From the NCBI GenBank assembly GCA_902786355.1, contig CADABZ010000020.1, positions 1 through 52,383 of the forward strand: a stretch of DNA of 52,383 bases, written 5' to 3'. The notes under the pieces were generated by a model. The model had not been told where the DNA came from. It did no database searches and saw only the letters and a list, made by a program, of their open reading frames with translations. The first letter of the stretch is position 1; the number at the start of each line of letters is the position of its first letter. Of this stretch, positions 47,795-49,830 are shown piece after piece. Origin of the DNA: an uncultured Eubacteriales bacterium (lineage in GTDB: Bacteria > Bacillota > Clostridia > Peptostreptococcales > Anaerovoracaceae). The translations under genes were made by a program, and so were the position numbers.

Positions 47795-49075
47795 TTATAT
47801 TGCTGCGAATCCCTTTTCCAGGTCTGCAATAATATCATCTATATGTTCAGTACCTATCGACAGACGGATCGTAGACTGGGTTATATTCTGATCTGCCAGT
47901 TCCTCATCTGTCAGCTGAGAATGAGTCGTTGTAGCAGGATGGATCACAAGCGATTTGACATCGGCTACATTGGCAAGAAGCGAGAATATCTCAAGATTGT
48001 CTATGAACTTGAACGCTGCATCCTTGCCGCCCCTGATCTCAAATGTAAATATGCTTGCTCCGCCATTCGGGAAGTAGCGCTCATACAGCGCATGGTCAGG
48101 GTGATCAGGCAGCGACGGATGATTGACCTTTTCGACTTTAGGATGGTTAGCCAGATACTCCACCACTTTAGCGGTATTCTCCGCATGCCTTTCGAGCCTC
48201 AGAGACAGTGTCTCTGTTCCCTGAAGCAGCAGGAAAGCTGCGAATGGAGATATGCATGCGCCCTGGTCGCGCAGCAGAATCGCTCTTATGTAAGTCACGA
48301 ATGCCGCCGGCCCGACAGCGTCGGCAAACGAAAGTCCGTGATAGCTCGGATTAGGCTCCGCAATAGGAGCGTATTTGCCGCTTGCCTTCCAGTCGAATTT
48401 GCCGGATTCCACTATGACCCCGCCCAATGTAGTTCCGTGGCCTCCTATAAACTTGGTCGCGGAATGTACAACGATATCCGCTCCGTGCTCGAACGGCCTG
48501 ATCAGGTAAGGAGTTCCGAATGTATTATCGACAACCACAGGAAGGCCGTGCTTATGAGCTATCTCTGAGATCGCGTCGATGTCAGGGATATCACTGTTCG
48601 GGTTGCCGAGTGTCTCGAGGTAGATAGCCTTGGTGTTGTCCTGAATGGCCCCTTCGACCTCTTCGAGATTATGTGCATCCACGAAGGTGGTCTCAACTCC
48701 GAATTGCGGAAGTGTGCTGTTAAGCAGATTGAAGGTTCCGCCGTATACTGTTTTCTGCGATACGATGTGATCACCCTTCTGCGCAAGAGCCTGGATCGTA
48801 TATGTAATGGCAGCCGCACCGGACGCGACAGCAAGCGCAGCCGACCCGCCCTCGAGTGCAGCGATCCTCTCTTCGAAGGCTCCCTGTGTTGAGTTGTTGA
48901 GTCTTCCATAGATGTTTCCTGCGTCTCTCAATGCAAAACGATTTGCGGCATGCTGTGAATTGTGGAATACATAGGATGTCGTAGCATAGATAGGCACTGC
49001 TCTTGCGTCTGATGCTATGTCCGGCTGTTCCTGTCCTGCGTGGAGCTGAAGTGTTTCGAATTTATAGTTACTCAT
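47795..49075 (-). CDS. metY: O-acetylhomoserine aminocarboxypropyltransferase / cysteine synthase type (426 aa)
   Basis: MetY makes homocysteine from O-acetylhomoserine and sulfide with PLP, a direct route to methionine. The PLP lysine is K208 in VVHSATKFIGGHG. Other family motifs are YGRLNNSTQGAFEERIAALE near residue 56, LETLGNPNSDIPDI, VVVDNTFGTPYL and the C-terminal STIRLSIGTEHIDDI. The length is right for MetY and longer than MetB/MetC. AAAGGAGAA precedes the ATG. The 5' leader has a leader peptide and a terminator, and a regulator gene of the Rrf2 type is divergent, so supply is controlled at two levels. Confidence 0.94.
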   Translation of the reverse strand: MSNYKFETLQLHAGQEQPDIASDARAVPIYATTSYVFHNSQHAANRFALRDAGNIYGRLNNSTQGAFEERIAALEGGSAALAVASGAAAITYTIQALAQKGDHIVSQKTVYGGTFNLLNSTLPQFGVETTFVDAHNLEEVEGAIQDNTKAIYLETLGNPNSDIPDIDAISEIAHKHGLPVVVDNTFGTPYLIRPFEHGADIVVHSATKFIGGHGTTLGGVIVESGKFDWKASGKYAPIAEPNPSYHGLSFADAVGPAAFVTYIRAILLRDQGACISPFAAFLLLQGTETLSLRLERHAENTAKVVEYLANHPKVEKVNHPSLPDHPDHALYERYFPNGGASIFTFEIRGGKDAAFKFIDNLEIFSLLANVADVKSLVIHPATTTHSQLTDEELADQNITQSTIRLSIGTEHIDDIIADLEKGFAAI

Positions 49076-49128
49076 AGTCCGTTCTCCTTTTCAAAAGATA
49101 TTAAAGTTCCCGATAAATGCCGGTAATT

Positions 49129-49160
49129 AAAAAACCGGCAGCTTTCTCTTTAGCTCCCGG
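49129..49160 (-). terminator. metY: Leader terminator ahead of metY
   Basis: On the minus strand CCGG-G-AGCT (49152-49160) pairs with AGCT-G-CCGG (49135-49143) around an 8-nt A-rich loop, directly followed by TTTTTT (49129-49134). It lies between the leader peptide and metY, where an unregulated terminator would silence the gene. Confidence 0.7.
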
Positions 49161-49250
49161 ACAAAGTGGCTGATCATGGATCCTTCCGTGTACTCTCTAG
49201 CTTACGATATGGCATGCCGAAAGGTCCTGGCCATGTAACATGTCCGGGAG
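49154..49250 (-). promoter_or_regulatory. metY: Antiterminator pairing in the metY leader
   Basis: CTCCCGGACA inside the leader peptide coding region (49241-49250) is perfectly complementary over 10 bp to TGTCCGGGAG (49154-49163). The latter contains the first arm of the terminator, so the long pairing and the terminator exclude each other. Confidence 0.65.
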
Positions 49251-49300
49251 TTAAGCATTCGACAGCCCATCATTGAAGTTCTGAGTGCAGTCTGTTTCAT
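49202..49300 (-). CDS. Leader peptide of metY, 32 aa, rich in Met, with Cys
   Basis: The frame opens with ATG at 49300 behind a perfect GGAGG with a 6-nt gap and ends at TAA 49202. The peptide begins MKQTALRTSMMGCRML and continues with two further Met/Cys positions (C21, M23). In all there are 5 Met and 2 Cys in 32 residues, with an adjacent Met-Met pair at 10-11 and Cys at 13. Codons 17-20 form one arm of the antiterminator helix. A ribosome held at codons 10-13 would leave that arm free. I infer translation-dependent attenuation by methionine or cysteine supply. Confidence 0.7.
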   Translation of the reverse strand: MKQTALRTSMMGCRMLNSRTCYMARTFRHAIS

Positions 49301-49331
49301 AAGTTTCCTCCATGAATTGTACGTTGGATGT

Positions 49332-49364
49332 ATTTTAAGCCTATTCACCTACCATGTCAATAGG
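49332..49364 (-). promoter_or_regulatory. metY: metY promoter with overlapping operator-like repeat
   Basis: On the minus strand TTGACA (49355-49360), a 17-nt spacer and TAAAAT (49332-49337). The inverted repeat CCTATT-N13-AATAGG (49340-49364) covers the -35 and spacer and is a likely binding site for the divergent Rrf2 regulator. Confidence 0.7.
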
Positions 49365-49397
49365 TTATTTGATTGTTTTTCTTTTTTTATCCTGTGA

Positions 49398-49403
49398 TAT
49401 ACT
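49398..49403 (+). promoter_or_regulatory. Promoter of the Rrf2 regulator gene
   Basis: TATACT at 49398-49403 is preceded by TGA, forming an extended -10. A TTGTTT lies 19 nt upstream. The start would be near 49410, about 35 nt from the operator-like repeat, so a regulator bound there could affect both genes. Confidence 0.5.
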
Positions 49404-49431
49404 AGGTAAAAGAGCACCTGGAGGGATTCAT

Positions 49432-49830
49432 ATGATTTCAACAAAAGGCCGCTACGCGATTCGCGTAATGATAGATATAGCTGAGAATTCTAATGGCGGG
49501 TATGTTCCTTTAAAAGATATTGCTGGCAGACAGGATATCTCAAAGAAATACCTTGAAGCGATCGGCAAGGAGCTGGTGAACGGAGGCCTGCTTACAGCCG
49601 CAAGCGGACGCAGCGGCGGCTATAAACTGTCCAGGGAGCCAGAGGATTATAAGATATCAGAGATTCTTGAACTTATGGAAGGTACGCTCTCACCGGTCGC
49701 CTGTCTCAAAGAAAATGCAGCCCCATGCCCAAGGGCACAGGACTGCAAGACACTTCCGATGTGGCAGGAATACTATGAGCAGACGAGATCTTTCTTTGAT
49801 TCCAAAACACTCTCTGACCTTATCGTATAG
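49432..49830 (+). CDS. Rrf2-family transcriptional regulator, CymR/IscR-like (132 aa)
   Basis: The winged helix-turn-helix starts with MISTKGRYAIRVMIDIAE, the Rrf2 hallmark, and has the recognition helix around KDIAGRQDISKKYLEAIGKEL. The wing is in GRSGGYKLSREPEDYKI. Three cysteines (ACLKENAAPCPRAQDC, about residues 89-104) are placed as in IscR-type Fe-S binders, although CymR works without a cluster. ATG 49432 is chosen because GGAGG lies 7 nt upstream. It is divergent from metY, which fits a regulator of sulfur amino acid genes. Confidence 0.9.
   Translation: MISTKGRYAIRVMIDIAENSNGGYVPLKDIAGRQDISKKYLEAIGKELVNGGLLTAASGRSGGYKLSREPEDYKISEILELMEGTLSPVACLKENAAPCPRAQDCKTLPMWQEYYEQTRSFFDSKTLSDLIV

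Follow-up and report, generated by a model that had tools for sequence, protein, structure and literature searches.

The window, the whole stretch of 52,383 nucleotides analysed here, is contig C20 of a genome of 2.5 Mb in 63 contigs. Its minus strand carries metY behind a short leader ORF, and a gene for an Rrf2-family regulator is encoded divergently (Table 1). A near-consensus metY promoter sits 5' of the leader, with a palindrome over its -35 box. The leader ORF comprises 32 codons behind its own ribosome binding site (RBS) and contains five Met codons, of which Met10 and Met11 are adjacent, as well as two Cys codons, Cys13 and Cys21; these features, put forward in the original prediction, were all read in the sequence.

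Table 1. Features of the metY leader region, in window coordinates
Feature	Position	Strand	Basis or remark
metY, O-acetylhomoserine/O-acetylserine sulfhydrylase	47795..49075	-	TIGR01326, 622.7 bits vs cut-off 495.1
Intrinsic terminator C:D, CCGGGAGCT-AAAGAGAA-AGCTGCCGG-TTTTTT (U6)	49160..49129	-	sequence; U-run after arm C in the family
Arm C TGTCCGGGAG, common to antiterminator and terminator	49163..49154	-	CCGGGAG recurrence across leaders
Arm C' GCCAC, partner of arm B	49166..49170	-	4/5 pairs in the window
Arm B ATGGC	49230..49234	-	pairs C' in the antiterminator extension; pairs arm A in the predicted protector hairpin
Arm A CTCCCGGACA, 5' strand of the antiterminator	49250..49241	-	spans the third base of codon 17 and all of codons 18-20
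Cys13 codon TGT, conserved regulatory codon at -5 before arm A	49262..49264	-	family Cys counts; ribosome-position model
Leader ORF MKQTALRTSMMGCRMLNSRTCYMARTFRHAIS*	49300..49202	-	sequence; core conserved among relatives
RBS GGAGG of the leader ORF	49311..49307	-	sequence; 6 nt 5' of ATG
Promoter TTGACA-17-TAAAAT of the metY leader	49332..49360	-	11/12 consensus positions
Palindrome CCTATTGACATGGTAGG over the -35 box, probable operator	49348..49364	-	motif recurrence; Rrf2 protein as putative binder
Rrf2-family regulator (IscR/CymR-like), divergent	49432..49830	+	TIGR00738 above cut-off

Arm A is exactly complementary to arm C over 10 bp, and arm C overlaps the 5' half of the terminator before metY. 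The earlier claim that four leader codons form one strand of a 10-bp helix that excludes this terminator therefore holds, the terminator stem containing one G.G mismatch; a simple terminator scan of the window did not list the C:D terminator. The A:C helix is present in the MFE fold of the window leader, whose whole-leader z is only -1.36. Moreover, 57 of 3000 dinucleotide shuffles of the window leader contained a perfect inverted repeat (10 bp or longer, arms 20-150 nt apart), and for this reason the 10-bp helix alone, in the window sequence, is only mildly beyond chance. An extra hairpin, GCCGG..CCGGC (49119..49139, minus strand), overlaps the 3' arm of the terminator and comes after its U-run.

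A family of leaders in Clostridia

Relatives of the leader were collected with a sequence-only covariance model of a 55-nt core trained on three leaders (R1) and with a second model built from 27 leaders (R2). At E<=0.01, R1 matched 43 and R2 matched 60 of the 349 genomes of the window's own family. In the order sample, R2 matched 14 of 345 genomes at E<=0.001, all within the own family, and in the class sample 12 of 391 genomes at E<=1e-4, belonging to five families (f1, f40, f53, f68 and f69). An exact DNA pattern searched over named genomes matched at least 120 stretches, with about four chance matches expected by our own estimate from the number of fixed bases; the matches listed (80 of at least 120) fall in Lachnospiraceae, Ruminococcaceae/Oscillospiraceae, Saccharofermentans, Mogibacterium, Eubacterium, Blautia and others. 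Taken together, leaders with the same build occur across several families of Clostridia from gut and rumen (131 distinct leaders). One of the leaders, L194, stands with a metY-like gene in an Eggerthellaceae-labelled bin, reflecting either a transfer or wrong binning.

The joint set comprises 131 distinct Clostridia leaders, the class leaders L250 and L251 being repeats of the pattern loci L189 and L204; two pairs in the distinct set are still at least 97% alike, and L152, two copies in one masked stretch, was counted twice. Downstream genes and pairing were counted in a set of 121 leaders, obtained before the class leaders were joined by removing ten duplicates from 131 records. Cys codons were counted in 50 distinct leaders kept of the 52 strong R2 matches (E<=2.7e-6). 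Outside these 50 are G015, which is near-identical to the window, and G003 (L103), which has three Cys codons and whose arm A reads TTCCGG, hence without the TCCCGG anchor. The class set contributed 12 of 13 leaders; L255 (G655) was omitted, since a search for a start in the arm's frame returned none. It combines Cys-Cys and both arms with an in-frame stop immediately 5' of arm A, and is a natural variant that separates the stall codons from translation of the arm. Also uncounted were L067 (G116; no anchor), nine weak R2 hits (E 0.001 to 0.01) and the weak R1 hits G202 and G378:C29.

These counts carry biases of construction. The anchor TCCCGG was required for the codon table, so its invariance there is built in, and the 71 pattern-only leaders, in which the Cys codons are built in, were kept out of the Cys counts. 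Additionally, the training leaders of R1 and R2 already had these codons, which tilts the matches of both models towards them; in the R1 training set TGT stands at -5 in all three leaders and Cys at -6 in only one.

Codon numbers run backwards, with the TCC of arm A as the reference point. Of the 50 own-family leaders, 45 have Cys at codon -5 (four have Met, one Gly) and 45 have it at codon -6, where G, S, M, T and L occur once each. Cys at -5 and/or -6, spelt both TGT and TGC, was found in all 50 own-family leaders and in all 12 class leaders kept. The number of Cys at -7 to -5 ranges from 1 to 3; most leaders of the family have two or three at this key place, whereas the window, at the poor end of the family, has a single one (Gly12-Cys13). 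Met is frequent at -8 (27/50) and -7 (26/50), ATG at codon -3 is nearly invariant (49/50), and codon -4 is CGA in 25 leaders and CTG in the other 25.

The reading frame is conserved as well. The best RBS-start within 110 nt lies in frame with arm A in 128 of the 131 distinct leaders, the exceptions being L051, L122 and L194, and strong RBS-starts are in frame in 103 of 103 cases, all of them open to arm A. The peptides share a conserved core, MCC(R/L)MxxSR(A/T)..MAG, and their N-terminal part is variable in sequence and length.

CCGGGAG, the hallmark of arm C, is found 3' of arm A in 117 of the 121 leaders, compared with 2/117 and 3/111 in controls, and in 12 of 12 class leaders. Its spacing from arm A is 48-209 nt, with 101 of the 117 falling at 85-104 nt. 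Among the four leaders without it, three read CTCGGGAG, with which G-U pairing is still possible, and one is cut by the contig end. In 115 of 117 leaders, arm C leads into a U-run (control, 8/110). Within the A:C helix, pair k+6:j-1 is GC in 104, AT in 7, GT in 4 and unpaired in 2 leaders (n=117; 115 standard), and its covariation z is 8.2 in 100 thinned rows. The B:C' pair k+18:j-8 is formed in 79 of 100 leaders (60 GC, 11 AT, 8 GT). Furthermore, in G042, whose metY is 79% identical, both sides of the helix are changed, from A-U to G-C (ACA/TGT to GCA/TGC). Frame, RBS and both helices are thus conserved together across the family, and this joint conservation supports the attenuation logic of the trp and his type that the original prediction had proposed.

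From 77 aligned CGA-class leaders, alifold recovered the A:C helix alone, and the remaining arms were therefore examined in a fixed frame. A protector hairpin A:B is predicted by folding; its covariation is weak, z reaching no more than about 4 and the top column pairs not making up one clear helix, and the local fold z averages only -1.11 in 60 CGA-class and -0.61 in nine CTG-class leaders (mononucleotide shuffles). CGAATG (codons -4/-3) might be conserved as the base of this hairpin, with CGTTCG downstream as its partner. Folding suggests this pairing, but clear covariation was not found among the aligned leaders, and the idea therefore stays a guess.

Downstream genes, promoter palindrome and other RNA elements

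A downstream gene was called for 117 of the 121 leaders. These are 67 metY-like genes, 23 genes for MetQ/NlpA or family-3 binding proteins, 18 cysK, four amino-acid permease genes, one taurine/sulfonate-type ATPase gene and four genes too short to name. Genes were grouped by cluster and nine representatives were scanned for names; the representatives of the binding proteins are of MetQ/NlpA type, of family-3 cystine-like type, or fusions of the two. The genome of the window itself holds two model matches at E<=1, one before metY and one before cysK; the latter copy (L105, G000:C10:84953-85012) encodes the peptide MTINDRIYIMNMEWCCLMSGSRARCMTGVLS*. After the near-identical G015, the next metY genes are those of G042 and G010 (79% identity). 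The leader of G042 is homologous to that of the window, and in G010 the leader precedes cysK, whose end directly adjoins metY. At L036/L040 (G037:C58) an intact leader stands before a very short frame, the gene apparently being broken or replaced, possibly by an insertion. A divergent leader with an insertion, L067 (G116:C31), precedes an SDR-like oxidoreductase gene, by eye not a sulfur gene.

The palindrome at the promoter is conserved in the family as well. CCTATTGAC is present at the promoter of 109 of the 129 distinct leaders with enough upstream sequence (0/120 in the control stretch), and in 99 leaders it is followed by TAGG, which completes the palindrome. Of the 131 leaders, 110 of them with at least 700 nt of upstream sequence, 32 have an upstream gene for a relative of the window's Rrf2 protein. 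Against the CymR model NF047409 the window's Rrf2 protein scores 86.2 bits, below the cut-off of 195. An Rrf2 repressor plausibly acts on the promoter palindrome, and the presence of both the palindrome and a divergently encoded Rrf2 protein points to additional regulation at the level of initiation.

In Bacillota, the control of amino-acid genes is commonly attributed to T-boxes, S-boxes and repressors. Neither the S-box (RF00162) nor the T-box (RF00230) covariance model matched the metY leader, and Rfam, searched at gathering scores over the whole window, matched nothing; nor did it match at E values up to 5 within 49000..49500, or in the 15 other loci scanned. The initial statement that no such RNA is to be seen is thus borne out at the metY leader and does not extend to the genome, in which one S-box match stands before metK, and three T-box matches, all scoring under the cut-off, lie upstream of two trpB-like genes and of thrS (names by eye). 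More distant metY genes of the order have, judged by eye, an S-box-like (L008, L010-L014) or T-box-like (L015) leader instead. One of the trpB-like genes following a T-box (L246, G000:C6, 1907-3256) seems split into two frames near 2400, and a second trpB-like copy with a T-box lies on C27 of the same genome.

Ribosome position and the proposed cysteine attenuator

Sixty leaders sampled of 115, plus the window, were folded with the ribosome footprint barred from pairing at each codon. The mean probability of the antiterminator in the 60 leaders is 0.86 with the A site at codon -6 and 0.85 at -5, and falls to 0.42 at -4, 0.08 at -3 and 0 from -2 to +7. For the window, the corresponding values are 1.00 (-6), 0.99 (-5), 0.83 (-4) and 0.29 (-3), then 0. 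In this model, codons -5 and -6 are the last places where a stalled ribosome leaves arm A free, and stalls at -8 and -7 likewise leave it free. The edge depends on the assumed footprint: a change of 3 nt displaces it by a codon, and with the longest footprint the value at -5 drops to 0.42. Even when codon -6 or -5 is in the A site, the terminator is the more probable structure in 7 of the 60 leaders. Without a ribosome, the antiterminator mean is 0.61 and the terminator is likelier in 22 of 60.

The Cys codons at -5/-6 and the model optimum at -6/-5 are consistent with an on-state in which the ribosome stalls at these conserved codons. Given that frame, RBS and helices are conserved, that every leader counted has Cys at -5 and/or -6, that arm C recurs and that one of its pairs covaries, the metY leader is very probably a ribosome-mediated transcription attenuator that responds to the charging of Cys-tRNA, with cysteine as its regulatory codon. 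Anatomy, conservation and geometry rest here on sequence and computation, from which we infer the response to cysteine. The original prediction had left open whether methionine or cysteine is sensed; Cys at -5/-6 in every leader of both counted sets (50 of 50, 12 of 12), the second copy before cysK and the S-box before metK favor cysteine, and methionine would be at most a secondary signal.

When Cys-tRNA is ample, the ribosome would read through the Cys codon and either occupy arm A or let the A:B hairpin re-form behind it; in this situation, the late arm C would pair with D and transcription would stop. When Cys-tRNA is short, the ribosome would stall with the Cys codon in its A site, covering the sequence up to arm A and leaving arm A itself free. 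The freed arm A (and B) would then pair with arm C, which would block the terminator and allow transcription of metY. In the equilibrium model, the window antiterminator has a probability of 1.00 both with the ribosome at the stop codon and without a ribosome. Since equilibrium favors the antiterminator even without a ribosome, termination needs a kinetic argument. The model does not by itself account for termination after the ribosome has left arm A; that step would presumably require either that arm A is still occupied by a ribosome or that the A:B hairpin predicted by folding forms.

A more elaborate form of this switch is conceivable, a response to sulfur starvation found widely among Clostridia of gut and rumen, in which a translated leader senses the charging of Cys-tRNA, and also of tRNA-Met in variants with Met at the key place, and shares its promoters with an Rrf2 repressor to give a double-gated regulon; we put it forward tentatively, as the less likely extension of the cysteine switch.

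That methionine is sensed, alone or jointly with cysteine, through a stall at Met10/Met11 upstream of arm A, appears unlikely. The window has MM at -8/-7, positions at which Met is common in the family and at which stalls also free arm A in the model; moreover, Met occupies four of the five -5 codons that are not Cys, and some downstream genes are MetQ/NlpA-like. However, it is Cys, not Met, that every counted leader has at -5/-6, while Met at -7/-8 is often replaced and the near-invariant ATG at -3 sits where a stall favors termination. The presence of cysK among the targets, own genome included, and the S-box before metK in the same genome also speak against methionine.

The conserved peptide core could instead indicate an arrest peptide, whose nascent chain stalls on a small molecule and not for lack of Cys-tRNA. 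This is quite improbable: the residues after Cys are largely explained by RNA pairing (SR(A/T) in arm A, MA in arm B), arm B changes together with C', and Cys varies both in spelling and in number while the N-terminal part varies as well. Slightly less probable still is an RNA switch, that is, a riboswitch or protein-binding RNA of no known family in which the ORF is incidental. The strong nucleotide conservation of arms A and C and the restriction of codon -4 to CGA or CTG in the 50 leaders would suit such an element, but the strong RBS-starts are invariably in frame and open to arm A despite variable N-terminal lengths, the Cys positions match the stall geometry, and Rfam recognized none of the loci scanned. 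Chance hairpins in an ordinary 5' UTR can practically be dismissed: shuffles do yield a comparable helix in a single sequence, but the comparison across leaders contradicts this reading, as arm C is conserved in 117 of 121, covaries with arm A and is nearly absent from controls.

The cysteine attenuator proposed here would be of a known mechanistic kind, while neither this family nor its regulon and distribution in Clostridia seems to have been described: the literature searched (without most subscription journals, and the best-ranked results where there were many) contained no report of a metY/cysK leader family. Trp- and his-type attenuators, including the ribosome-mediated his leader of Bacilli (PMC2965389), follow, as far as described in the text available, the same logic of regulatory codons and alternative antiterminator and terminator; they differ in the amino acid, and the metY family has arm A just downstream of the regulatory codons. 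The closest descriptions are those of actinobacterial cysteine leaders and of the uORFC-8-2 motif, a predicted attenuator before cysS in Rhodobacterales with tandem Cys usually at codons 14-15 (PMC8632094). By the available part of that source, uORFC-8-2 resembles the metY-leader family in its predicted ribosome-mediated attenuation, its tandem Cys and a U-run at the 3' side that would fit a terminator stem. The two are set apart by description, uORFC-8-2 being reported there from Alphaproteobacteria only and before cysS, in contrast to the metY-leader family in Clostridia; the strings 'metY', 'cysK' and 'Lachno' are absent from the available main text. Conversely, no cysS cluster was recognized downstream of the 117 leaders with a called gene (four of these genes being too short to name), and no location before cysS in Rhodobacterales was found among the matches listed (80 of at least 120) or the downstream clusters.

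Poly-cysteine short ORFs upstream of cysteine genes have been described in mycobacteria (PMC1262725), and cys/cbs leaders in Actinobacteria by Canestrari et al. 2020, whose title calls the ORFs leaderless (cited in PMC13236596). As portrayed in the accessible portions of these sources, they share with the metY leader Cys codons in a short ORF before cysteine genes, but their Cys run is placed close to the stop codon, with no conserved terminator hairpin detected. Unlike the actinobacterial leaders, the metY leader has its Cys codons mid-ORF just before the antiterminator arm, an intrinsic terminator and an RBS. In Clostridium perfringens, cysK is under a cysteine T-box and metK under an S-box, and the authors allowed for further mechanisms in clostridia (PMC2940859). 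According to the part of that paper available, related genes and a related signal are involved; the T-box RNA reads tRNA-Cys, whereas the metY leader is translated and has no T-box match.

The putative cysteine leader is shared by several families of Clostridia; the genes of its regulon serve synthesis and transport, and a palindrome is conserved at its promoter. It may offer a directly testable account of cysteine sensing in gut and rumen anaerobes, and on this basis many short ORFs and 5' UTRs would receive an annotation.

Conservation does not extend to the 3' end of the ORF. The leader of G015 (L005) is 98% identical to that of the window, and a 1-nt indel shifts its frame after MARTF; since the frame is shifted even in so close a relative, the C-terminal end of the leader peptide seems free to vary. 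CGATGT, a hexamer that encodes Arg-Cys and frequently closes the ORF, is present 44 times between k+24 and k+90 in the 121 leaders, with about 1.8 occurrences expected, and 27 of the 121 leader peptides end in RC.
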